Shown piece by piece: positions 5,890 through 21,069 of a stretch of 22,021 nt of DNA; position 1 is the first letter of the stretch, and each line of letters opens with the position of its first letter. The translations under genes and the position numbers were made by a program. Under the pieces are notes generated by a model. That model was not told the DNA's origin, did no database searches, and saw nothing but the letters and a program-made list of their open reading frames with translations. This stretch comes from a virus: positions 2,249 to 24,269 of IMG/VR virus record IMGVR_UViG_3300030118_000967. One strand, given 5' to 3'.

Positions 5890-8193
5890 GTGGCAGTTTC
5901 AAATGTAGAGTTAAGAGTTGGAGCCACTCAAGCAATCACAGCATTAAAGAATGTAAATACTCAGGCGCAAAAATTTAACCAGACTGTAAACGGAACAAAT
6001 AGCAAATTAAAAGATGCTAATAAGACTTTACCAATAGTTTCCAAAAACTTTTTCGGTAGTGGCGCAGCAGCAAAAGGGGCAGCAATAAGTTTTAGAAGTG
6101 CTGGGACTGCATTAGCTACAGCTTTAGGGCCACTTACTGCTGGACTTACTGTAGTTGCTGCACTTACAAAAACATTTCAAAGCTTATCCGCCCAAGACTT
6201 TGCCATTGCAAGAGTAAGGACTCTTGGAGTAAATGTTGAAACTCTTAGACCACAACTTGCAAGCTTATCAAATGAGCTTAGTGGTCAAGTATCACAGCTT
6301 TCATTATTAGAGGCATCTTATGATCTAGCATCTGCTGGTTTTGCTGAAACTGCTGAGATTACAAATATTTTAAAAGCAGCCCAGTTAGGTGCTACTGGTG
6401 GATTTTCTGATTTGCAAACTGTTACTGATGCAACAACATCTGTTTTAAATGCTTATGGCTTAGAGGCTGATAAAGCTGCAAAAATAGTTGACGGATTCGC
6501 ACAGACGCAAGCTGATGGTAAAATTGTTGTAGATCAATATGCAAAGCAGATAGGTCGTATTGCGCCAATAGCTGCTGGTGCTGGTGTAAGTATAGATGAA
6601 TTAAATGCTGCGATTTCTGCTGTCACTGCAACTGGTGTTCCTGTTGAATCAACCTTTGCTGGACTCAGACAAGTTCTTGCTTCAATACAGAAGCCCACTA
6701 GTGAAGCGTCTAAAGTAGCAGAAAAACTTGGTATTGATTTTAGTGCTGCTGCATTAAAGTCAAAAGGATTCAGCGGAGTTTTAGAGGATATTGTTGCAAA
6801 TGGTGGAGCGAGTGCAGACAACTTATCTAAATTATTTGGAAGTGTAGAGGCTCTTACAGCAATACAGCCTCTATTAAATGATGAATTAGTCAAGTTTAAT
6901 CAGGCTCTAGAAAATCAAGCTAATGCACAGGGTAGGGCTGCCCAAGACGCTTTTACAGCAACTAATACAATTCAGGGTCAACTGACAAGATTAAGCTCTG
7001 CATTTACAAATATAACGACAGAAGGTTCTGAATTTGGAATAGTTATAAGAGAAGTTTTAAAAGTAACTGCTGTTACTGTTGAAGCTTTAGGAGTTGCTAT
7101 CAAGGCTCTTTTTACACCTACTAGACAGCTTTTTGCTTTAATTGGTCAGATAGGAAAAGTAATAGCTGATGCAATAGGAATTGATGCAACAAAAACTTTA
7201 TTTAATTTAGAGCAAGGGTGGATACGAATAAAAGAAGCGGTTTCAGAAAGTTCAGAACAAGCTATCTTTTTTGCTCAGGTTGTTGGTGGTGTAATAGGTA
7301 AAATAGTTGTTGCAATTGCTAAAACTGCAACTGGGATAAGGGATACAATCACTGGTCTAGTAGATGGTGTCGTTACTTTTATTAGAGACAAAATAAACCA
7401 GCTAATTGAAAATATTCCAGAACCCATAAAAAAATTATTAGGAGGGCTTGAAATACCAAAACTTGATTTAGATGTAAAAATACCAAAATTGCAAAATGCT
7501 TTTAAAGGTTTAAAAGAAAAAGTTGATGAATTAAAAAATGGAATTATTGAATTTAGTGGAGTTGAAAAGCAAATAACTGAAGAAAATAATAAACAACTTG
7601 ATGCAAAAAATAAAATTGTAGAAACTAATGGAAAAATAAAAACTACTGTTGATGAGATTACAGACGCAGAAAAAAAAGCTAAAGAAGAAGCAGATAAATT
7701 AAAAGCTAAATTTACGAAAATAGGTGAGGATATTGAAAAGGGTATTGTTCAGAATCTTACAGACGCGGTAGATGGTACAAAAACACTTGCAGATGCAGCA
7801 ATAAGCACACTGAATAAGTTAAAACGAAAGTTGATTGAAGTAGCTATTGAAAAGGCAGTAGCTGGTATTGGAGGTCCGATTGGTAGCTTTTTGGGTAAAG
7901 TTTTTGGCGGTTTCAGAGCGTCAGGAGGTCCAGTAGCAGCTAATAAATCTTTTATCGTGGGCGAAAAAGGACCAGAGATTTTGACAATGGGTTCTAGAGG
8001 TGGATTTATTACACCAAATAACAAAATTGGTGGAGCAGGAACGACTAATAATATTGTGGTAAACGTAGACGCTGGCGGGACCTCAGTACAAGGTGACGGA
8101 TCTAGCGCAGATGCACTTGGACAACTTATTGGAGCCATAGTCCAAAGAACATTAATAGAAGAATCACGAAGTGGAGGTCTTTTAAATAGATAA
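5890..8193 (+). CDS. Tail tape measure protein (TP901 family)
   Basis: A 767-residue protein that fixes tail length and is thought to act in DNA ejection. Residues about 100-330 match the TP901 core: ASLSNELSGQVSQLSLLEAS, ASAGFAETAEITNILKAAQL, then a TDATTSVLNAYGL segment and IAPIAAGAGVSIDELNAAIS. Hydrophobic stretches at about 72-93 and 400-495 may enter the host membrane; a Lys/Glu-rich coiled coil covers roughly 535-640. The Gly-rich end with GGPVAANKSFIVGEKGPE (about 678-696) is the usual C-terminal motif of these proteins. Start is GTG at 5890 with AGGAG at 5872-5876, a rather long 13-base spacing. At 1.5 A per residue the tail would be near 115 nm. The length is modest for the family. 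Confidence 0.93.
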   Translation: MAVSNVELRVGATQAITALKNVNTQAQKFNQTVNGTNSKLKDANKTLPIVSKNFFGSGAAAKGAAISFRSAGTALATALGPLTAGLTVVAALTKTFQSLSAQDFAIARVRTLGVNVETLRPQLASLSNELSGQVSQLSLLEASYDLASAGFAETAEITNILKAAQLGATGGFSDLQTVTDATTSVLNAYGLEADKAAKIVDGFAQTQADGKIVVDQYAKQIGRIAPIAAGAGVSIDELNAAISAVTATGVPVESTFAGLRQVLASIQKPTSEASKVAEKLGIDFSAAALKSKGFSGVLEDIVANGGASADNLSKLFGSVEALTAIQPLLNDELVKFNQALENQANAQGRAAQDAFTATNTIQGQLTRLSSAFTNITTEGSEFGIVIREVLKVTAVTVEALGVAIKALFTPTRQLFALIGQIGKVIADAIGIDATKTLFNLEQGWIRIKEAVSESSEQAIFFAQVVGGVIGKIVVAIAKTATGIRDTITGLVDGVVTFIRDKINQLIENIPEPIKKLLGGLEIPKLDLDVKIPKLQNAFKGLKEKVDELKNGIIEFSGVEKQITEENNKQLDAKNKIVETNGKIKTTVDEITDAEKKAKEEADKLKAKFTKIGEDIEKGIVQNLTDAVDGTKTLADAAISTLNKLKRKLIEVAIEKAVAGIGGPIGSFLGKVFGGFRASGGPVAANKSFIVGEKGPEILTMGSRGGFITPNNKIGGAGTTNNIVVNVDAGGTSVQGDGSSADALGQLIGAIVQRTLIEESRSGGLLNR

Positions 8194-8786
8194 TGGCAAC
8201 ATTTCCTTTAATCCAGCCAACATACGGCACAAGAAAAAACAGTACTCCTAATGTAAGAGTTACGAGACTGGGTGATGGATACGAGTTCCGCGCTCTATTC
8301 GGCTTGCCACAAAATCAAGATCCCAAAATATACGATTTAACTTTTAATGTCACAGAGGTCGAAGCAGACGTAATAGAAGCCTTTCTAAGGAGCCGTGTAG
8401 CAGATCAGGCTAGTTTTACATTTACACCACCAGCTGAGGGATTCAGCAACAAAGGAGGAACATTTATTCAATCAAATGGGGCTGGTGCTACAGGTAAAAT
8501 TGTTACCGTATCTTGTACAAACCATGGAGTAGCGATTGGCGATACAATTTCTGTTACTGCAAACAGTGGAGGTTTAGCTAACGGTGATTATGTTGTAAGT
8601 GCTGCTGCGAATCAAAATACATTTACTATAAATTCTGCTGCAAACGCACATGTCACAAGCCAAACTTCTATAACATTTGATTTATCTGGAGCTGGCAAAT
8701 TTGTGTGTGAACAGTGGTCAAAATCTATTCCATTTAGGAACAGAGCTGTAATTAACTGTAGTTTTAGGGAAGTTTTTGAACCATGA
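8193..8786 (+). CDS. Tail tip protein, lambda gpM-like, with inserted beta module
   Basis: A 197-residue minor tail protein. The N-terminal part (FPLIQPTYGTRKNSTPNVRV, then LGDGYEFRALFGLP and a LTFNVTEVEADVIEAFL helix, to about residue 82) and the C-terminal part (KFVCEQWSKSIPFRNRAVIN, to FREVFEP) together form a Phage_min_tail (gpM) domain. Lambda gpM is 109 residues; the excess is an insertion at about 99-162 with the pattern IVTVSCTNHGVAIGDTISV ... GDYVVS ... NTFTI, related to segments in the following tail-tip proteins. gpM-type proteins join the distal tube ring to the tip. Start overlaps the tape measure stop (TAATG). Confidence 0.82.
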   Translation: MATFPLIQPTYGTRKNSTPNVRVTRLGDGYEFRALFGLPQNQDPKIYDLTFNVTEVEADVIEAFLRSRVADQASFTFTPPAEGFSNKGGTFIQSNGAGATGKIVTVSCTNHGVAIGDTISVTANSGGLANGDYVVSAAANQNTFTINSAANAHVTSQTSITFDLSGAGKFVCEQWSKSIPFRNRAVINCSFREVFEP

Positions 8787-9637
8787 CTACAAATCCTATA
8801 TCTGATTTACAAAAACTAACTAACAAATCAATCATAGAACTTTTTTCTATTGAGTTAAAGCCTGATATTCATTACACAAAAAAATCATTTGATACAACTT
8901 ACCAGCAATCAGCAGAAACAATTACTGTAGCTTTAGCGACTGCATTTCTTGAGTTTTCTGTGGGGGATCTGATTAATCTAGAATTTTCTGTAGCACCAGA
9001 AGCTCCTACAGTTCCTGTTGCAATTAGCGGTATATATACCGTAGATACAGTTACATCAAGTAATTTCACTGTCAAAGCATTGAACACTCTAGCTACTGCG
9101 GGTCGTGTTAAAGGAATCGCTAACGCGAAAATAATTAACTCACAAAGACAACCAACAATTTTTTTATTTCACAGCGGTGTAAATATCAAGAATAAATCAG
9201 ACATAATCTGGCAAAATAATAAATATACTAAAATGCCGTGTGAAGCGAGTGGTTTTAAATATTCTGGTAAAGGGACACTGCCTAGACCTACGATTACATT
9301 TTCTAATCTTCTAGGTAGTATTAGTTCAATAATTGCAGATACAAATTTAATTACACCTTTCATTGATATGCAAACTGCAAAAGTAACTAGAATTAGAACT
9401 TTAGCAAAATTTCTTGATGCAGAAAATTTTCCTTCAAATATAAATCCTTTCGGGACACCTGACCCACTTACAGAGATGCCAAGAGAGGTATATTTCATTG
9501 ACAAAAAAAGCTTAGAGAATAGAGATGTTGTACAGTTTGAATTAGTTAGCAGTTTTGATTTAAGTGGTGTTGGCGCACCTAAAAAACTGGTATCCCGCGC
9601 AGACTTCATAGGTGTTGGAACTTTTGTAAATTTTTAG
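8783..9637 (+). CDS. Tail tip protein, lambda gpL-like, lacking the Fe-S domain
   Basis: A 284-residue homologue of lambda gpL (Phage_tail_L). Recognisable segments are SIIELFSIEL (16-25), IFLFHSGVNIKNKSDIIWQN (126-145), the YTKMPCEASGFKYSGKGTLP stretch (148-167) and PRPTITFSN, then PREVYFIDKKSLENRDVVQF and ELVSSFDLSG. A beta module is inserted at about 44-112 (SVGDLINLEFS ... GIYTVDTVTSSNFTVKAL). The protein stops soon after APKKLVSRADFIG, where lambda gpL continues into a C-terminal Cys-rich [4Fe-4S] domain. Only one cysteine (Cys153) is present, so no cluster is possible. The next gene starts one base after the stop, so this is not a sequencing truncation. Start overlaps the gpM stop (ATGA). 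Confidence 0.85.
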   Translation: MTTNPISDLQKLTNKSIIELFSIELKPDIHYTKKSFDTTYQQSAETITVALATAFLEFSVGDLINLEFSVAPEAPTVPVAISGIYTVDTVTSSNFTVKALNTLATAGRVKGIANAKIINSQRQPTIFLFHSGVNIKNKSDIIWQNNKYTKMPCEASGFKYSGKGTLPRPTITFSNLLGSISSIIADTNLITPFIDMQTAKVTRIRTLAKFLDAENFPSNINPFGTPDPLTEMPREVYFIDKKSLENRDVVQFELVSSFDLSGVGAPKKLVSRADFIGVGTFVNF

Positions 9638-9638
9638 T

Positions 9639-9995
9639 ATGACTTGGAAAGAATCTTTTAAAATTTATGCAAAACAAGAGGCACCCTTTGAGGCTTGCGG
9701 TCTGGTAGCTGTTATTAAAGGTGAGGAAAAATTTTGGCCTTGTAAAAATTTAGCTAAAGAAAAAAAAGATTTTTTTATACTAGACCCTGACGACTGGGTA
9801 GAGTGTGAAGATTTAGCAGATGAGATAGTCGGTGTAGTGCATAGTCATCCAGAAATACCAGCAGAACCATCAAGGGCAGATATAGCATCATGTGAGCATA
9901 TTGGTTTTCCATATTTTATTTATAGTATTGTTCAAGATAGTTGGATTTCAGTGGAACCAGAAAATTGGAAAAATTTACAAGCAGGGAGAGCATGA
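9639..9995 (+). CDS. Tail tip JAMM/MPN peptidase domain protein (gpK N-domain-like)
   Basis: A 118-residue single-domain Mov34/MPN/PAD-1 (JAB1) protein. It shows the complete JAMM zinc-peptidase motif: Glu18 in PFEACGLV, HSHP with His68 and His70, then Ser78 and Asp81 in PSRAD, spaced as H-x-H-x7-S-x2-D. A DDWVECEDLADEIVGVVHSH helix-strand precedes the metal site. Lambda gpK is about 200 residues and adds an NlpC/P60 cell-wall hydrolase domain; here that second half is missing. In the tail tip the protein probably acts in tip assembly or protein processing; isopeptidase activity on the beta-grasp gpI is sometimes suggested from gene fusion but is not established. Only a one-base gap separates it from each neighbour. 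Confidence 0.88.
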   Translation: MTWKESFKIYAKQEAPFEACGLVAVIKGEEKFWPCKNLAKEKKDFFILDPDDWVECEDLADEIVGVVHSHPEIPAEPSRADIASCEHIGFPYFIYSIVQDSWISVEPENWKNLQAGRA

Positions 9996-9996
9996 A

Positions 9997-10833
9997 ATGG
10001 AATTAAGAAAAATAAAAGTTTATGGTAAGTTGAGAAAATTATTAGGGGAAAATAGTTTTGAAGCTGCTGTTAATTCACCTAAACAAGCTTTTGATTTTTT
10101 AAGAGCAAACTTTGAGGAGTTTGATCAACACATGAATCAACAACTATATCAGGTGAAAATGGGTGGACGTGTTGTAACTCAAGATGAAATATCATTTTTA
10201 GGTCAAGGGGATATACAAATAGTGCCTGTCGCTGTTGGTTCAGGTTTGTTTGATTTTATAGAAGATTTTTTTGAGTTTGTTTTTGATAACGCAATACCAT
10301 TTGTAACTGCTTTTTTCACAGGAGGTTTTAGTCTTCTTGCTACGGTGGCTGGTATAACTCTTGCAACAGATGTATTAAGTAATAATCGACCAGCAACATC
10401 TCGAAGTTCAGTCGGTGATACAGATCCAAATATAAGAGGTTCTTATGCGTTTAACGGCATACAAAATGTCAGCACTAGTGGAATACCAATACCAATAATA
10501 TATGGATATGTCTATAGCGGATCAATTCTGGTCAGCTCAGGCGTTGATTCTGCCCAGATAGTTCCAGTTTTAACTGATACAGGTACTTATGGACAATCTG
10601 GAAATATAGTTACTATATATATTGATAATCATGGTATAAAAAATGGCGAAAGTGTTCGTTTAGATTGGCTTACAGGACCTTTAGCTGGTTCAAATGTAGA
10701 TGACGGAGGAAGATTTGGAGTTCAAGATGCTACTACAGATACTTTTAAAACTTCTCTTGGTATGTGGAGTAATAAAAATTATGCAAATTCAGTAAACAAT
10801 ACTGTTAAAATTAATGCAAGACATCAAGATTAA
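9997..10833 (+). CDS. Tail assembly protein, lambda gpI-like, with C-terminal beta module
   Basis: A 278-residue protein. Residues 1-80 form a ubiquitin-like beta-grasp domain (MELRKIKVYGKLRKLLGENS ... FDFLRANFEEFDQ ... GDIQIVPVAVG), as in lambda gpI. A Gly/Phe-rich hydrophobic stretch (about 82-128) follows, then SYAFNGIQNVSTSGIPIPII (149-168), the G-x-P-I-P-x-x-Y-G motif of gpI C-termini. About 198-268 carry an added module with DNHGIKNGESVRL. I chose ATG 9997 over the upstream in-frame ATG 9892: it is two bases after the gpK stop, has AGGGAG at 9983-9988, and removes a nonconserved hydrophobic stretch lying inside gpK. gpI acts in tip assembly and is not thought to remain in the virion. 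Confidence 0.82.
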   Translation: MELRKIKVYGKLRKLLGENSFEAAVNSPKQAFDFLRANFEEFDQHMNQQLYQVKMGGRVVTQDEISFLGQGDIQIVPVAVGSGLFDFIEDFFEFVFDNAIPFVTAFFTGGFSLLATVAGITLATDVLSNNRPATSRSSVGDTDPNIRGSYAFNGIQNVSTSGIPIPIIYGYVYSGSILVSSGVDSAQIVPVLTDTGTYGQSGNIVTIYIDNHGIKNGESVRLDWLTGPLAGSNVDDGGRFGVQDATTDTFKTSLGMWSNKNYANSVNNTVKINARHQD

Positions 10834-10839
10834 TTCATT

Positions 10840-13800
10840 ATGGTTAAATTAATTGATGATGAATTATTTGGGAGAGAACCTGACAGCAGAGTATTAGATA
10901 TTCAACTAATAGAAGGTAGTTTAAGAAGTAAACAATTTGCAACAATTATAGATCTGTTAGGATATGGCGAAATTGAAGGGTTTAGAAGTCCAGAAAATAC
11001 AAACCCAGATACGACAGATTCTTTAAATATTGGAAGAGATATTTTTTTAGATAATACACCCTTGGTGAATCCGAGTGGAGATCCTAATTTTGATGATGTA
11101 GAGGTTTTCTTCAGAAATGGAACTACTGATCAAGATCCCCTTAGCACATTTGATACTTTTGGGCCTGACCGAGTAGAAAATACAATACCTGTTGGAGTTG
11201 AAGTAGAAAAAAATACATCTGTTTCAAGATCAATAACAGGTGTTCAAGATGCAAGTGGTAATGAACTAATAAAACTTATAAGAGTATCTATACAGATTCC
11301 ATCTTTGCTGAAATTTACAAATGAAGGCGATATACGCGGTACGGAAGTAAAAATATCAATACGTATTACAGAAAATAATGGAACTGTACATAACCCAGTC
11401 GTAGAAGATTCTATAAAAGGTAAAGCACAAAGTCCTTATGTAAAAGATTATGAAATCCTTTTAGAAAGTAATAATCTGGATTTTCCTTTAACAGTCACAG
11501 TTATAAGAAATACAGAGGATAGCACAGATAATAAGTTGGCAAATAAAACTATTTTTTTATCGTTAACAACAATAATTACAGAACCACAAGCATATAAAGG
11601 CTTTGCTTATGTTGCATTAAGATTTAATGCACAATCTTTCCCATCCTTCCCTAAAAGGATGTACAGGATCAAGGGAACAAGGATCAAGATACCGCATAAT
11701 GCGGAAGTAGATTTAGATAATGGAGCTATTACCTACAGTGGTACTTTTAATGGGACTTTCAAAGCTGACAAAGAATGGAGCGCAGATCCCGCATGGATTT
11801 TATATGACTTATTAACAACAGATAAAGGTTTTGGTGGTCCAGAGGGTGTTATACCTGAAGATTCATTAGATGTGTTTTCTTTTTTCCAAGCATCTAAATA
11901 TGCAAGTGAAATAATTACAGATCCGATAACAGGTATAGACGAACCAAGATTCAGTTGCAATGTAATTTTAAATACAAGGCAAGATGCGTACACTCTGATA
12001 AATGATTTGTGTAGCGTTATGAGAGCAACCGCATTTTATAGTGCTGGGTCGCTTGTTATTAATCAAGACAGGCCAACGAATACAACTACAAATACATCAA
12101 CACCAGAATATGTATTCAATAATTCTAATGTAGGAAGGGATGGTTTTACATATAAACAAGTAGGAGATAAGACAAAATTTACAGAGGTAGAAGTTTCTTA
12201 TTTTGATAATGACACTCAGACACTAGATTTTGAGTTTGTTGATACAAATAAAATACCAGCCTTATCTGGATATATTGATAAATTTGGCAGAATACGAAAG
12301 ACCATTAAAAGTTTTGCATGTACTTCTAGAGGTCAAGCAAATAGATTAGGTAGATGGTTCTTATATACAAACTTAAAAGAATTAGAAGTAGTTACTTTTT
12401 CAACAACTCTAGAAGCTGGTGTTGTTGTAAGACCATCTATGGTTATTGGCATAGCTGATACTTTAAAACAAGGAATTAGAATGGGAGGGCGCATTGCTGG
12501 TCTTAGTAGTTCTGCAGGCAACTCAGATATTGATGAAATAATTTCAGACGGTGATATACCAGCATTGTCATCGGGACTCAACACAATACATGTTGTAATG
12601 CCATCTGCTGCTGCTGTTTCTTCTGACTCAGAAAACAAACAAATAACACTGACACGAAATATAGTATCAATATCTGGCAGAAAAATTACATTAGATGGCA
12701 AAATCAATCCACAAGGCATTTCACCAAATATCGGCACAGTTTATTCAATAACCAGCGCAGCCGTACCAATACAGCTCTATCGCGTAGTTGGGATTGAAGA
12801 AAATAATGATTTTGAATATACTATTTCAGCTATAATTCATGATCCGCTTAAGTACGGAGAGATAGAACGACTAGACACACCCCCTGAGCCAAGAACAATA
12901 AATACTCTTATCGGTCAAGTTTCATCTCCAAAAAATGCTACCGTCACAGAGGAGATAGTTTCGTTAAGAGATCGAGCTGTATCTAGATTAACAGTAGCTT
13001 GGGAGCCAGAAATAGGAGTAAGTGAATATTTACTTGAATATCAATTTACTGATCCTAAATTAGAAATAGCAGACAATCCACAAAGTGTAAGAGTGTCAGC
13101 ACCTACTTTTGAGTTTTACGATGAACTTGCGAGACTTGGTGTATATCAATTTGTTATCAAATCATTTAACTCTTTAGGAAGAATAAGTTCAGATTCTACA
13201 AAAGTGTTTTTTGCAACTTCTGGAAAAACTGCAAATCCCGCACCAATACAGAATTTAACATTTGAACCAATTGACGAAAGAAATATAAGACTACGTTTTG
13301 ATAAGCCTACAGATCCTGACGTGGTGCATGGTGGACGAATTTTGATCAATTATTCTTTTAATCATCAAGGCAAAGGATTATTCTCACAATCAAATTTTTT
13401 ACAAGCAGTCGCTGGAAACTCAACAGAGGCAATAGTGCCACATCCGTGGCAAGGTGAATATATTTTGAAAACTGAAGATGATGGAGGAAGGCAAAGTATT
13501 GAGGAGACATCTGTCATTGTTAATCGTCCTGCGCGTTACAAACTCAAATTAATAGAAAATCAAGAACAAAATAACAATCCTAAGTTTGGCGGTGTGAAAA
13601 AAAATTGCGCTTTCAATACTACAAAAAATGGATTAGTTTCAGATGAAACTGTTACCAGTGGATTTTATGTTTTTGCCTCTGCTTTAGATGTTGGCTCAAT
13701 ACAGCCAGTGCGACTAAAAAGCATTTTGAAAACTAGTTCATATTACCCAAGTGCTATATTCAGTACTAGAACTTTAGCTATTGATAAATGGTTTGAGTTT

Positions 13801-14595
13801 GACGGGACTGACGATCAAGCCGTCAACACAAACGCAAAATTATTAGTCTCACAAACTGATCAAGACCCAAATGCTTCGACTGCTGTAACTTATGGTATGT
13901 CAACTGGCCTTACAGAAATTAATAAAACTAATCATGGTTTAAAAGTTGGTGATAATGTTTTTATTACTTTCACGAGTGGTTTTGCTCAGAATAAAAATAT
14001 TGATCATGATTTTTTAGTTCACAGTTTAGGTTTTAGAGCAAGCACTGGTAAATTTGATGATCCTGATAAATTTGTAGTAGTCACACCACAACCAGAAATC
14101 GGTAATATAATTTTTCAGTCTGGTAATGCAAATTTAAGTAACAAATTTACTCCATTCGATGAATTTATTAACGGAGACTTTACTGCAAGAGGTTTCAAAT
14201 TCAAATGTATTTTTGAAATTTCAGATCCTGCACAATCGATAATAATTGAAGAGCTTGGGTTTTTGGCTGGTTTAGACGGGAGAACAGAAACAAGTATTGA
14301 AAACACATCTTCAACGAATGGCAGATTTACTTCAAGCAGTACGACTAGCACTACTGTTACTTTTGAAGAGCCATTTTTTACTGGTGTTAATGGATTAGAT
14401 GTAGCAGCAAACAGTGCAAAGCCAGCAGTTAGTGTCTCAGTAGAAAATGCTCAGGGTGGAGACTTTGTAGAGATAACAAATATTACAAGTACAAATTTCA
14501 CAGTCAATATAAAAAACAGAGATACAAGCGGTAACGACAGTTTAGTTGTGAGAAACTTTAAATATATTGCTAGGGGTTTTGGACGTACATACTAA
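10840..14595 (+). CDS. Tail tip attachment protein, lambda gpJ-like
   Basis: A 1251-residue central tip protein. The N-terminal part has SLRSKQFATIIDLLGYGEIE and a GRDIFLDNTPL strand; KRMYRIKGTRIKIP and GTFKADKEWSADPAWILYDL (about 300-325) are hallmark gpJ hub segments. GRWFLYTNLKELEVVTFSTT and GIRMGGRIAGL (to about 555) complete the hub. Fibronectin type III-like domains are likely at about 685-790 and 798-880 (LTVAWEPEIGVSEYLLEYQF). A beta module with KTNHGLKVGDNVFITFTSG lies at about 1015-1094, and the C-terminus ends GFGRTY after a TVTFEEPFF-type strand region. The N-terminal half builds the tip trimer; the C-terminal part should contact the receptor. No obvious Shine-Dalgarno at the ATG. 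Confidence 0.9.
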   Translation: MVKLIDDELFGREPDSRVLDIQLIEGSLRSKQFATIIDLLGYGEIEGFRSPENTNPDTTDSLNIGRDIFLDNTPLVNPSGDPNFDDVEVFFRNGTTDQDPLSTFDTFGPDRVENTIPVGVEVEKNTSVSRSITGVQDASGNELIKLIRVSIQIPSLLKFTNEGDIRGTEVKISIRITENNGTVHNPVVEDSIKGKAQSPYVKDYEILLESNNLDFPLTVTVIRNTEDSTDNKLANKTIFLSLTTIITEPQAYKGFAYVALRFNAQSFPSFPKRMYRIKGTRIKIPHNAEVDLDNGAITYSGTFNGTFKADKEWSADPAWILYDLLTTDKGFGGPEGVIPEDSLDVFSFFQASKYASEIITDPITGIDEPRFSCNVILNTRQDAYTLINDLCSVMRATAFYSAGSLVINQDRPTNTTTNTSTPEYVFNNSNVGRDGFTYKQVGDKTKFTEVEVSYFDNDTQTLDFEFVDTNKIPALSGYIDKFGRIRKTIKSFACTSRGQANRLGRWFLYTNLKELEVVTFSTTLEAGVVVRPSMVIGIADTLKQGIRMGGRIAGLSSSAGNSDIDEIISDGDIPALSSGLNTIHVVMPSAAAVSSDSENKQITLTRNIVSISGRKITLDGKINPQGISPNIGTVYSITSAAVPIQLYRVVGIEENNDFEYTISAIIHDPLKYGEIERLDTPPEPRTINTLIGQVSSPKNATVTEEIVSLRDRAVSRLTVAWEPEIGVSEYLLEYQFTDPKLEIADNPQSVRVSAPTFEFYDELARLGVYQFVIKSFNSLGRISSDSTKVFFATSGKTANPAPIQNLTFEPIDERNIRLRFDKPTDPDVVHGGRILINYSFNHQGKGLFSQSNFLQAVAGNSTEAIVPHPWQGEYILKTEDDGGRQSIEETSVIVNRPARYKLKLIENQEQNNNPKFGGVKKNCAFNTTKNGLVSDETVTSGFYVFASALDVGSIQPVRLKSILKTSSYYPSAIFSTRTLAIDKWFEFDGTDDQAVNTNAKLLVSQTDQDPNASTAVTYGMSTGLTEINKTNHGLKVGDNVFITFTSGFAQNKNIDHDFLVHSLGFRASTGKFDDPDKFVVVTPQPEIGNIIFQSGNANLSNKFTPFDEFINGDFTARGFKFKCIFEISDPAQSIIIEELGFLAGLDGRTETSIENTSSTNGRFTSSSTTSTTVTFEEPFFTGVNGLDVAANSAKPAVSVSVENAQGGDFVEITNITSTNFTVNIKNRDTSGNDSLVVRNFKYIARGFGRTY

Positions 14596-16855: not shown

Positions 16856-18253
16856 ATGGCTAACACAATCAGAATTAAGCGTTCAACTGGTAATGACGCA
16901 CCAACAAGTTTAGCAAATGCGGAATTAGCTTTTGCCGAAGGTAGTAAAAAACTTTTTATTGGTATTGGTACAGGTGGTGATGGTGGATCTGCTACAACGA
17001 TTGAGGCAATTGGTGGTTCTGGAGCTTTTGTAAGTTCAGTTACAGCAAGAAATACAAATTTAGTTTTTGCTGGTCCTGCTTCTGGATCTGCTGCTGCTCC
17101 TGCATTTAGGTCGCTTGCAGTTGCTGATATTCCAACGCTGACTAGTAGTATTATCTCAGATTTCAATACAACTGTTAGAAATAACAGAATAGATCAATTA
17201 GTTTCACCAATAGGAAGTTTAAATTTAAATAGTCAAAAAATAACAAGTTTAGCAACACCAACAAGCGATAATGATGCTGCAAATAAAGGTTATGTTGACT
17301 CTGTTGCTGAAGGTTTAGACGTTAAGGACAGTTGTACCGTAGCTTCAACTGCTAACGTAACAATTGCAACGGCCCTAAATAATGGTGATGTTTTTGATAG
17401 TGTCGCTCTTTCAACTGGGGATCGAGTTTTATTAAAAGATCAAACTAATGCTACAGAAAACGGAATTTATATAGTTGGAGCTTCACCAGCGAGGGCTGAT
17501 GATCTAGCTGCGGGTGCTGATGCTGCGGGTGCTTTTACTTTTATCGAGCAAGGGACAAGTGCTGATAAAGGATTTGTTTGCACAAGTAACAAAGGATCTG
17601 CTGTTGTAGGGACAAATAATTTAGCATTTTCGACATTTAGTTCTTCTGGTGATGTTTCAGCAGGAAATGGTTTATCAAAATCAGGTAATACATTATCAGC
17701 AAGTCTTGTAACTAATGGTGGTTTAATTTTTAGTGGCACTTCTATAAAAGTAGATTTAGATGCAGCATCAATAGGCGGAAAATTAGCAGTTAATAGAGGT
17801 GGTACAAATGCAACTTCAGCCTCAGGTGCCAGAACTTCGCTAGGGTTAGTAATTGGCACTGATGTCGAAGCTCATTCAGACAAGTTGACTGAGCTGGCAA
17901 CAATGAATCTAAACACAGCACAAAAATTGGCTGATTTAACTAATACTGAAGTCGGAGTCTTGGATGGCATAACTGCCACAACTGCAGAATTGAACAGGGT
18001 AGATGCGACTTCAAGTATTCAAACACAATTAGATTCTAAACAGGCTTCAGATACTCAGTTAACTGATATTGCTGCCCTTGCTGTAACTAATGGAGGCTTC
18101 ATTGTTGGCAATGGAACTACTTTTGTTCTAGAAACAGGTGCAACAGCAAGAACTAGTATGGGTTTAGGGTCAATGGCAACCCAAAATGCTAACTCTGTAA
18201 ATATAGATGGAGGAACTATAGACGGAATAACTCTAGACGGGGGTTCCTACTAA
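16856..18253 (+). CDS. Tail fiber protein 1
   Basis: A 465-residue fiber. The N-terminus MANTIRIKRSTGNDAPTSLA continues with N-A-E-L-A-F-A-E-G and KLFIGIG, the R-I-K-R-S-x(5)-P-x-x-L-x-x-x-E-L-A ... L-F/Y-I-G pattern of phage fiber head domains. Residues about 121-230 hold a common fiber module (LNSQKITSLATPTSDNDAAN, KGYVDSVAEGLDVKDS, GDRVLLKDQTNATENGIYIV). Later segments (SGDVSAGNGLSKSGNTLSAS; VEAHSDKLTELATMNLNTAQ) are typical Ala/Thr/Ser-rich trimeric shaft sequence, and it ends NIDGGTIDGITLDGGSY. Its first residues are related to those of the next gene. It follows the GPQGP gene after an 11-base gap. No chaperone or depolymerase domain is visible. Confidence 0.82.
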   Translation: MANTIRIKRSTGNDAPTSLANAELAFAEGSKKLFIGIGTGGDGGSATTIEAIGGSGAFVSSVTARNTNLVFAGPASGSAAAPAFRSLAVADIPTLTSSIISDFNTTVRNNRIDQLVSPIGSLNLNSQKITSLATPTSDNDAANKGYVDSVAEGLDVKDSCTVASTANVTIATALNNGDVFDSVALSTGDRVLLKDQTNATENGIYIVGASPARADDLAAGADAAGAFTFIEQGTSADKGFVCTSNKGSAVVGTNNLAFSTFSSSGDVSAGNGLSKSGNTLSASLVTNGGLIFSGTSIKVDLDAASIGGKLAVNRGGTNATSASGARTSLGLVIGTDVEAHSDKLTELATMNLNTAQKLADLTNTEVGVLDGITATTAELNRVDATSSIQTQLDSKQASDTQLTDIAALAVTNGGFIVGNGTTFVLETGATARTSMGLGSMATQNANSVNIDGGTIDGITLDGGSY

Positions 18254-18273: not shown

Positions 18274-21069
18274 ATGGCAAATACCATTAAACAAAAACGT
18301 GGCAGTGGTAGCAATCCTTCTGCTAGTGATTTAGAAGTAGGTGAATTAGCCATAAGGACCGATAATGGTCATCTGTTTACAAAAAATGATAGCGGTACAG
18401 TAATTGAACACGCAGATATAGGGGTTTTAACTGCTAATACATTACTTGGTAGAAGAGTAAGTAATGGCACTCCTCAAGAGCTTACAGCAAGCCAAGTAAG
18501 AACAATAATAAATGTGGCTGATGGTGCTACAAACGTCACGAATAATAATCAGTTAACAAATGGTGCGGGCTACATAACATCTTCAAATAGTGCTGTTACT
18601 GGTAAATTGTCCAAAGCGGGTGGCACTATAACTGGGAACTTACAAGTAAATGGAACAACTACCTTAAATGGCAATATAGATTTGGGAGATGCTTCTGCTG
18701 AAACTGTAACTTTTACAGCAGTTGTTGACAGTGATATTTATCCAGAAATTGATAGTTCGCACGACTTAGGAAATGCTTTTCAAAAGTGGGATAATGTTTA
18801 TGCAAATACTTTTACAGGTAATGCAGCAACCGCAACAAAACTAGCTACGGCTAGAACAATTGCAGGGACAAGTTTTGACGGTTCTGCTAATATAAATATT
18901 TCTTTTAATAGTTTAACTAATAAACCAACAATACCTACAAACAATAATCAACTGACTAATGGTGCAGGCTATTTAACTTCTTCATCTAATTTAAACGCTG
19001 ATAAATTAAGTTCTGGAACAATACCAGCAGCAAGAATAGGAAGTAATGCGGTCACTTTTGCTCGTATGCAAAATATTGCTGAAGAACGATTGATAGGAAG
19101 AGTAAGTAGTGGGACAGGAGATCCCGAAGCATTGACACAAGCACAAGTAAGAACTTTCTTAGGTCTTGCAAGTTCAGCGACAACTGACACTACAAATGCG
19201 TCAAATATTTCATCTGGAACTATTCCTGCTGCACGAATCGGCAATGATGCCGTAACTTACGCAAAGATCCAGAATGTATCTGCTACAAACAGAATACTAG
19301 GAAGAGATTCAGCTGGTGCTGGAAATATTGAAGAGATAACTCCTGCAAATTTACGCACTATGCTTAATGTTGCTGACGGTGCAAATAATATTACTAACAA
19401 CAACCAACTTACAAACGGAGCTGGCTACATAACTTCTCAAAGGTCTGTTGAATCCGTACAGGATATTGTTGGGGGTATGGTGTCAGGTAACTCTGAATCT
19501 GGCATAACAGTCACTTATCAAGATTCTGATGGCACAATAGATTTTTCAGTGTCTTCGCAAACTGATAATAATTTTACTAATGCTTTAAAAACTAAACTTG
19601 ATGGTATAGCTTCAAGTGCAACAAATGTCACAAATAATAATCAACTTACCAACGGGGCTGGCTATATAACCTCTCAGAGATCTGTTGAATCAGTACAAGA
19701 TATTGTCGGAGGGATGGTTTCTGGCAACTCGGAGTCAGGTATCACAGTTACTTACCAAGATTCAGACGGTACTTTAGATTTTTCTGTTGCGTCACAAACT
19801 GATCAAAATTTTACAACAGCATTAAAAAATAAATTAGACGGTATAGCGTCTTCAGCTACAAATGTCACGAATAACAATCAACTCACAAATGGGGCAGGGT
19901 ATATAACCTCACAGAGATCAGTTGAGTCAGTGCAGGATATTGTTGGAGCTATGGTTACAGGTAATACTGAGTCAGGAATATCAGTTACATATCAAGATGC
20001 AGATGGGACTTTAGACTTCTCAGTTTCTTCTCAGACAGATAATAACTTTACAACAGCGTTGAAAAATAAATTAGACGGTATTGAGTCTGGAGCTAAGGCA
20101 GATCAAACAGGTACAGAAATAAGAGCATTATTAGCAGCTACGAGCAATACAAATATTTTAAATGATACTTTACTTTCAAAATTAAATGGTATTGCTTCTG
20201 GCGCTACTAATGTAACTAATAATAACCAAATTTCTAATGGTGCTGGTTATATAACTTCAAGTAATTCAGCAATCACTAATAAGATGCCTAAAAGTGGAGG
20301 CACATTTTCTGGAACAGTAAATTTAGGTGGAAATGACATAGATAATGTCGGCAGAATGACAGGTAACGGTTTAACTCTAGAAGATGACGGAGAAAGCTCA
20401 CCTACTTTTAAATTAGTTACAGATGATGAAGCTCCATATGCTATGCAAATCAGCAATAGTACCTATTCAACTCAGCAAGTAGGTTTACTTACTTTTGTAA
20501 AGAATAACGGTGATGCTGAACTTTTACATGCTGGAAACGGAGAGTTTAAAGACTTTTCTATTGGAACCTCATTAGGAATTGGTTTTATTACTTGTATTAA
20601 GATTGACGGATCAGAACAACAAGTCGAACTTTATAAATCGGGTTCTAAAGTATTTGAAACTGTTGGAAGTGGAGTTGAGGTCACTGGTTCCTGTCAGGCT
20701 GGCAGCTTTAAAAGTGACGATTTGCTTCCACCAGTTTTTCAGTTTACTAACGGAAACAAGGCGGGACAGTTAAGCGTAGGCAATGCAAACATAGACGGCA
20801 CAGGTACTGTAACTTTAGAATCTGATTTTAATGTTTCTTCAGTCAGTGATTCAGGAAGTGGTGTTTATGACATTTCATTTGACGAAAATTATAAAAACAG
20901 TCACTACATAGTTACGGCAGAAAGTGGTTTAATATCTTCAACTAGCAGCGCATCAACTACAGTTGATATAAGAAATATGTCTAGTTCTGGTTTTAGATTA
21001 TTAATTGAGGATGTAGATGCTGGTTTTATTGATGTTGATTATGTTATGTTTTCTATTTTTGAAAATTAA
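18274..21069 (+). CDS. Tail fiber protein 2 with repeated shaft units
   Basis: A 931-residue fiber. The head domain (MANTIKQKRGSGSNPSASDL ... VGELAIRTDNGHLFTKND) resembles fiber 1. The shaft has the motif NNNQLTNGAGYITS (or close) six times (near 90, 222, 374, 453, 532, 649), SSGTIPAARIG twice (near 246, 313), and a PEIDSSHDLGNAFQKWDNVY segment (157-176) followed by FTGNAATATKLATARTIAGT, common in cyanophage fibers. Three direct 79-residue units (372-608) each carry VESVQDIVG. The C-terminal 250 residues are unrelated beta structure, ending in YDISFDENYKNSHYIVTAES and VDYVMFSIFEN, the probable receptor-binding tip. It has one of the few good Shine-Dalgarno sequences here, AGGAG at 18260-18264 with nine-base spacing, suggesting high translation. 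Confidence 0.88.
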   Translation: MANTIKQKRGSGSNPSASDLEVGELAIRTDNGHLFTKNDSGTVIEHADIGVLTANTLLGRRVSNGTPQELTASQVRTIINVADGATNVTNNNQLTNGAGYITSSNSAVTGKLSKAGGTITGNLQVNGTTTLNGNIDLGDASAETVTFTAVVDSDIYPEIDSSHDLGNAFQKWDNVYANTFTGNAATATKLATARTIAGTSFDGSANINISFNSLTNKPTIPTNNNQLTNGAGYLTSSSNLNADKLSSGTIPAARIGSNAVTFARMQNIAEERLIGRVSSGTGDPEALTQAQVRTFLGLASSATTDTTNASNISSGTIPAARIGNDAVTYAKIQNVSATNRILGRDSAGAGNIEEITPANLRTMLNVADGANNITNNNQLTNGAGYITSQRSVESVQDIVGGMVSGNSESGITVTYQDSDGTIDFSVSSQTDNNFTNALKTKLDGIASSATNVTNNNQLTNGAGYITSQRSVESVQDIVGGMVSGNSESGITVTYQDSDGTLDFSVASQTDQNFTTALKNKLDGIASSATNVTNNNQLTNGAGYITSQRSVESVQDIVGAMVTGNTESGISVTYQDADGTLDFSVSSQTDNNFTTALKNKLDGIESGAKADQTGTEIRALLAATSNTNILNDTLLSKLNGIASGATNVTNNNQISNGAGYITSSNSAITNKMPKSGGTFSGTVNLGGNDIDNVGRMTGNGLTLEDDGESSPTFKLVTDDEAPYAMQISNSTYSTQQVGLLTFVKNNGDAELLHAGNGEFKDFSIGTSLGIGFITCIKIDGSEQQVELYKSGSKVFETVGSGVEVTGSCQAGSFKSDDLLPPVFQFTNGNKAGQLSVGNANIDGTGTVTLESDFNVSSVSDSGSGVYDISFDENYKNSHYIVTAESGLISSTSSASTTVDIRNMSSSGFRLLIEDVDAGFIDVDYVMFSIFEN
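19387..20097 (+). repeat. Three tandem 237-bp repeats in fiber 2
   Basis: Units 19387-19623, 19624-19860 and 19861-20097 each encode 79 residues built on NxTNNNQLTNGAGYITSQRS followed by VESVQDIVG, an SGxTVTYQDxDGTxDFSV-type core and LDGIxSxA. Unit 1 to unit 2: by hand I count 6 amino-acid changes but about 40 synonymous codon changes of 79, so the DNA copies are much less alike than the proteins. Partial copies of the opening motif occur elsewhere in the shaft. Confidence 0.85.

Follow-up and report, generated by a model that had tools for sequence, protein, structure and literature searches.

The window, by which we mean the whole 22,021-nucleotide stretch of viral DNA analyzed here (positions 2,249 to 24,269 of IMG/VR record IMGVR_UViG_3300030118_000967), encodes a tape measure protein and, in order, proteins resembling gpM, gpL, gpK, gpI and gpJ of phage lambda. 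Given this gene order and the homology of the products to lambda M, L, K, I and J, the operon specifies a tail tip of the lambda type (M-L-K-I-J).

The tail-tip operon and its modules

The five genes that follow the tape measure gene are as follows.

8193..8786, + strand: gpM-like distal tail protein, 197 aa, containing module 1 (PF05939, E 2.7e-13; lambda gpM 8iyk_M, E 4e-8)
8783..9637, + strand: gpL-like hub protein, 284 aa, containing module 2 (PF05100, E 9e-29; lambda gpL 8iyk_L)
9639..9995, + strand: gpK-like protein, 118 aa, with a JAB domain only and free of the module (PF14464)
9997..10833, + strand: gpI-like plug protein, 278 aa, with module 3 at its C terminus (PHROG_32, E 6e-24; aligns to lambda gpI 16-210)
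10840..14595, + strand: gpJ-like central fibre or tip attachment protein, 1251 aa, containing module 4 (PHROG_31, E 1.5e-156)

The AF2 model of the gpM-like protein matched lambda gpM with a TMt of 0.73, and the gpJ-like protein matched lambda gpJ across residues 28-795 (E 7e-62). The C-terminal Fe-S domain of gpL, with its four cysteines, was absent from the window protein, which contains a single cysteine. Relatives of the gpK-like protein are mostly ∼235 aa long, with a second half that appears NlpC/P60-like and is missing in the window and in one related locus (L002). Elsewhere in the window, the large proteins encoded at 18274-21069 and 16856-18253 both match PHROG_30390, a family without assigned function, and the latter additionally matches head decoration family PHROG_2647.

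The original prediction had picked out four segments, spanning 8487 to 14121, as one beta module inserted in four tail-tip proteins, and all four were found close to these positions. Here, gpM, gpL, gpI and gpJ were taken from ∼50 related viral contigs (designated by L numbers) and aligned, and the extent of each module, ∼70-90 residues, was read from occupied versus empty sites in the aligned relatives.

8433..8687, + strand: module 1, residues ∼81-165 of gpM, between strand SFTFTPP and GAGKFVC; absent from L047-L055
8912..9154, + strand: module 2, residues ∼44-124 of gpL, in the N-terminal HDI part; absent from L042-L049 (module HMM iE 5.8e-20)
10552..10830, + strand: module 3, residues ∼186-278 of gpI, a C-terminal addition (module HMM iE 5.9e-21)
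13879..14136, + strand: module 4, residues ∼1014-1099 of gpJ, in the distal part; absent from L023 and L051 (module HMM iE 1e-19)

At the empty gpM site of L047-L055, SFDWTPP runs nearly directly into GKFVCEQW; at that of gpL in L042-L049, LHG is followed by RFHSG or RFHAG; and in gpJ of L023, TTDDDPSS is followed by SFTQFN, with L051 likewise module-free. Given that gpI of most relatives ends at ∼residue 193, module 3 is a C-terminal addition and not an insertion. The predicted insertion thus holds for gpM, gpL and gpJ, whereas the gpI copy is appended. Absence of the module from lambda, also predicted, was borne out for gpM (lambda gpM has 109 aa, and the phmmer alignment ends at the insertion point) and was supported for gpL by comparison with lambda gpL. 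The suggestion that the module supplies most of the extra length of these proteins needs correcting for gpL, which lacks the C-terminal Fe-S domain and so ends up with only a small net gain over its lambda counterpart. The NHG motif of the module is lost from the window gpL copy and kept in gpL orthologs.

Homology and fold of the module

When the ortholog alignments of the four modules were compared profile against profile, all six pairs matched with probabilities of 96.2-97.9% and E values of 2e-9 to 5e-13, whereas 93 control comparisons, of the modules with 31 tiles of 80 residues from these proteins, never exceeded 4%. HMMs built from a single slot found other slots in the window (E 1e-5 to 7e-12), for some pairs in one direction only. 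A joint module HMM, searched against all window ORFs, gave one significant match in each of gpM, gpL, gpI and gpJ and none outside these proteins. With the other window copies only 17-28% identical to the gpM copy, unrelated beta-rich stretches abundant in Thr, Ser and Gly might be supposed to be alike in looks only. Such convergence is extremely improbable, given that comparison with tiles of the same beta-rich proteins separates the modules clearly, that HMMs from one slot find the others, that a single Pfam family covers the gpM, gpJ and other copies, and that gpM and gpL share one matching fold; provided that the control tiles are representative, the profile comparison refutes it. On the evidence of sequence, the modules of the gpM-, gpL-, gpI- and gpJ-like proteins are homologous.

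The endosialidase beta-barrel family PF12195 (End_beta_barrel; curated cut-off 35 bits) was the top match for seven of the nine module sequences tested, two of the nine lying above the cut-off. Scores reached 35.5 bits for the gpM module of relatives L042/L044, 38.6 and 40.0 for L045 gpJ and 36.4 for a cyanophage major capsid protein. The window gpM copy scored 15.4 bits (E 0.019), below the cut-off, and the window gpI copy gave no match to PF12195. Searched against the PDB, an all-slot profile retrieved the solved endosialidase barrels 4hiz (3.8e-7) and 1v0e (1.7e-5), with only chance matches (antibodies) far behind. Judged by these profiles, the module is not an unknown domain: its known kin is PF12195. 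The endosialidase barrel (EndoNF 1v0e, phi92 4hiz) and the module share an HMM sequence family, an H-G-phi-x-V-G-D core and a place within a virion protein. There, however, the barrel is part of a tailspike enzyme that has a site for polysialic acid, whereas here it is carried by four structural tail-tip proteins without an enzyme domain.

In Foldseek searches, the cores of the AlphaFold models of gpM (mean pLDDT 77) and gpL (mean pLDDT 74) matched lambda gpM and gpL, respectively. Each model also independently matched E1 enzymes, with probabilities mostly >0.9 and E values of ∼0.01-0.02 for the module part, and the gpM model matched endosialidases as well. The E1 FCCH domain is a Pfam relative of the endosialidase beta-barrel. 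Given that both models match this same FCCH-type barrel, the gpM and gpL copies are predicted to have a common fold, and the gpI and gpJ copies are assigned to the same domain by sequence. The expectation of one beta domain in four tail-tip proteins was therefore upheld by four-way profile homology and, for gpM and gpL, by the fold match. The virus record from which the window is taken contains no match to PF16190 (E1_FCCH), and some phage copies (L073, L135) pass the cut-off of that family; NCBIfam held nothing relevant to the module, nor was anything relevant found in the literature on FCCH or End_beta_barrel in phages. Despite the structural matches of gpM and gpL, E1_FCCH differs in being a domain of a cellular enzyme (ubiquitin-activating enzyme) with no known glycan role. 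Since the E1 FCCH barrel is not known to bind sugar, fold alone is no predictor of function.

Distribution of the module

Among the relatives, the module was found in none of the proteins, in M+J, in M+L+J (most loci) or in M+L+I+J (10 loci, including that of the window), and gpK carried it in none of the relatives examined. In a core tree based on 1244 module-free columns, module-free phages are basal, followed by M+J forms and then by a 34-row M+L+J clade, inside which two groups hold the I module as well. The “I” labels that L021 and L046 carry in this tree are artefacts: both contigs are short, and the gpI query matched their gpM module. Given that L001-L038 were retrieved with a gpL query that includes the module, module frequencies cannot be read from this locus set. 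The gpJ slot shows a loss in L023 and a second copy in L009, L045 and, by alignment, L044.

In trees, module sequences group by gene slot, and cross-gene DNA identity within genomes was not significantly above that between genomes for any of the six gene pairs (p 0.15-0.54). No shared DNA stretch of at least 22 bases was found between slots. Recent copying between slots as an ongoing process was rejected on these two grounds. Clustering by slot, with copies within a genome no more alike than those between genomes, points to old stepwise acquisitions followed mainly by vertical descent within each slot. The description of the module as mobile is apt for gain and loss slot by slot over evolutionary time but not for recent transfer between slots, of which nothing was detectable. 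Module 4 of the window has its closest counterpart in gpJ of L033, though L033 lies elsewhere in the core tree, which would fit an exchange of the distal gpJ part. In trees, modules on gpI are M-like in the window group and L-like in L026/L033, and the slot may have been filled twice independently; the AU test did not reject a single gpI-module clade (p 0.353).

The coat protein is 81% identical to those of the Prochlorococcus MED4 siphophages P-HS2, MED4-184 and MED4-117, which places the phage in a picocyanobacterial siphovirus group; the host of this marine phage is probably Prochlorococcus. P-HS2 itself has the module in gpM and gpJ and lacks it in gpL. A tblastn search of 50,697 phage records with one consensus module returned 19 records, 17 of them cyanophages, a query-dependent count that involves no enrichment test. 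Matches in IMG/VR, which was searched by a degenerate NHG pattern, represent a lower bound.

Spread within one assembly, as originally envisaged, proved too narrow a description, since capsid, fibre and Dit proteins of cyanophages carry the module as well. In the T7-like cyanophage P-SSP2 (L059:2140-3450), the major capsid protein has a module inserted relative to P-SSP10, and this module passes the PF12195 cut-off. The T4-like phage P-HM1 has one within a large fibre protein. An 865-residue protein (L135:7092-9686) contains five FCCH/endosialidase-type barrels and has an SPP1-type Dit C-terminal domain at its end. Another protein of 865 aa (L098:2113-4707) has two FCCH/endosialidase-type barrels.

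Candidate role of the module at the tail tip

On balance, and by analogy with known systems, we favor the reading that the barrels added to the tip proteins act as multivalent, low-affinity binders of host envelope glycans. Here, a domain of the endosialidase-barrel/E1-FCCH fold was added to M and J first, then to L and then to I, each copy staying in its own slot by mostly vertical descent, as the sequences show. The lambda tip contains gpM in six copies and gpL, gpI and gpJ in three copies each (PMC11101478, PMC10721106); at these copy numbers, and if all are present in the virion, a tip would therefore carry ∼15 barrels. Facing outward, these would jointly provide a low-affinity, high-avidity grip on envelope glycans and hold the phage while gpJ seeks its irreversible receptor, as do CBMs in lactococcal evolved Dits.

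Host-surface binding is plausible given the homology and the insertion sites. Of the three sites for polysialic acid in the endosialidase, one lies in the barrel, and the loops of this barrel affect which K1 strains the phage infects (PMC12632334). In T5, the distal tail protein equivalent to gpM has the same ring fold and is decorated with an OB domain (PMC10038345). Lambda gpM has previously been matched to T5 pb9, and that match ends at pb9 residue 85 (PMC7291167), near the insertion site of the module in gpM. In 936 lactococcal phages, CBMs in virion proteins bind the host (PMC6669499), and evolved Dits promote adsorption (PMC10688798). Outward placement is supported by a gpL homolog (L071:3000-4517) in which the module lies between cysteine pairs of the Cys-rich C-terminal domain, given that the Fe-S domain of gpL lies on the outer surface of the lambda tip (PMC10721106). 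That lambda gpI strands traverse gaps in the gpJ hub (PMC11101478) also counts for such placement, which is not certain for the gpI module because lambda gpI is largely a luminal plug. The window gpL copy may be structural only, given loss of the conserved HG motif.

A structural role throughout is rather unlikely. Here, the barrels would stiffen the M/L/I/J tip, either through mutual packing or as substitutes for lost parts such as the gpL Fe-S domain, with no host contact. The four carrier proteins do form one assembly in lambda (PMC10721106), and the Fe-S cysteine set is kept in module-free L047/L048 (five Cys) and lost in the checked module carriers of the lineage. However, the Fe-S domain has also disappeared from L042-L046 and L057, in which gpL gained no module, L071 has the Cys-rich domain and the module together, L023 manages without a gpJ copy, and the module occurs in contexts as unrelated as a T7-like capsid protein and a T4-like fibre. 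Neutral or selfish spread of a soluble, easily folding domain, tolerated in surface loops without benefit, would accommodate the way in which copies in gpJ have been gained, lost and duplicated (L023, L009, L044, L045) and the strong sequence divergence, including the loss of HG from the window gpL copy. It is nevertheless improbable, given that the gpM and gpL slots are occupied throughout their own clades (in a sample biased by retrieval with these genes) and that the module has been added to several different cyanophage virion proteins, which suggests selection.

A broader proposal can be advanced tentatively: one glycan-binding barrel family, specific to this host guild, may circulate among unrelated picocyanobacterial sipho-, podo- and myo-type phages and be fitted into any virion protein that faces the cell, with capsid, hub and plug among them; the tip of the present lineage would thereby have become a many-valent, lectin-like collar.

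Small binding modules that decorate virion proteins are already known. In the 936 and other siphophages (PMC6669499, PMC7291167), evolved Dits and CBM-bearing proteins likewise place small extra domains, thought to add weak host binding as proposed here, in several structural proteins per virion; in gpM, gpL, gpI and gpJ, too, an extra domain lies in a conserved virion protein with empty sites in relatives. Those decorations have BppA-type CBM folds and occur in Dit, MTP, neck and Tal of Gram-positive phages, whereas an endosialidase-type barrel is found here in lambda-type gpM, gpL, gpI and gpJ. Ig-like and OB decorations (T5 pb9 and others) are similarly appended surface beta domains, the T5 OB lying on the equivalent ring protein, but belong to other fold families, and no report of either in gpL or gpI was found in the literature. 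The present case is distinguished by four tail-tip proteins of one operon, by gpL and gpI as carriers and by sharing with other cyanophage virion proteins. It shows that lambda-type gpL and gpI can take up extra modules and points to one domain that unrelated cyanophages have in capsid as well as tail proteins. The first attachment of marine cyanophages to Prochlorococcus is poorly known, and the natural series of tips with 0, 2, 3 or 4 modules makes the contribution of the decoration to adsorption testable.

Inserts of other kinds were also seen in gpL homologs. The L071 protein has another large insert mid-protein, and gpL of Marine virus AG-345-A17 (L061:6342-7334) has a different insert of ∼140 aa with a cupredoxin-like look (THPLRI...YYCSTHG), which sits in another loop and has Thr-rich linkers.
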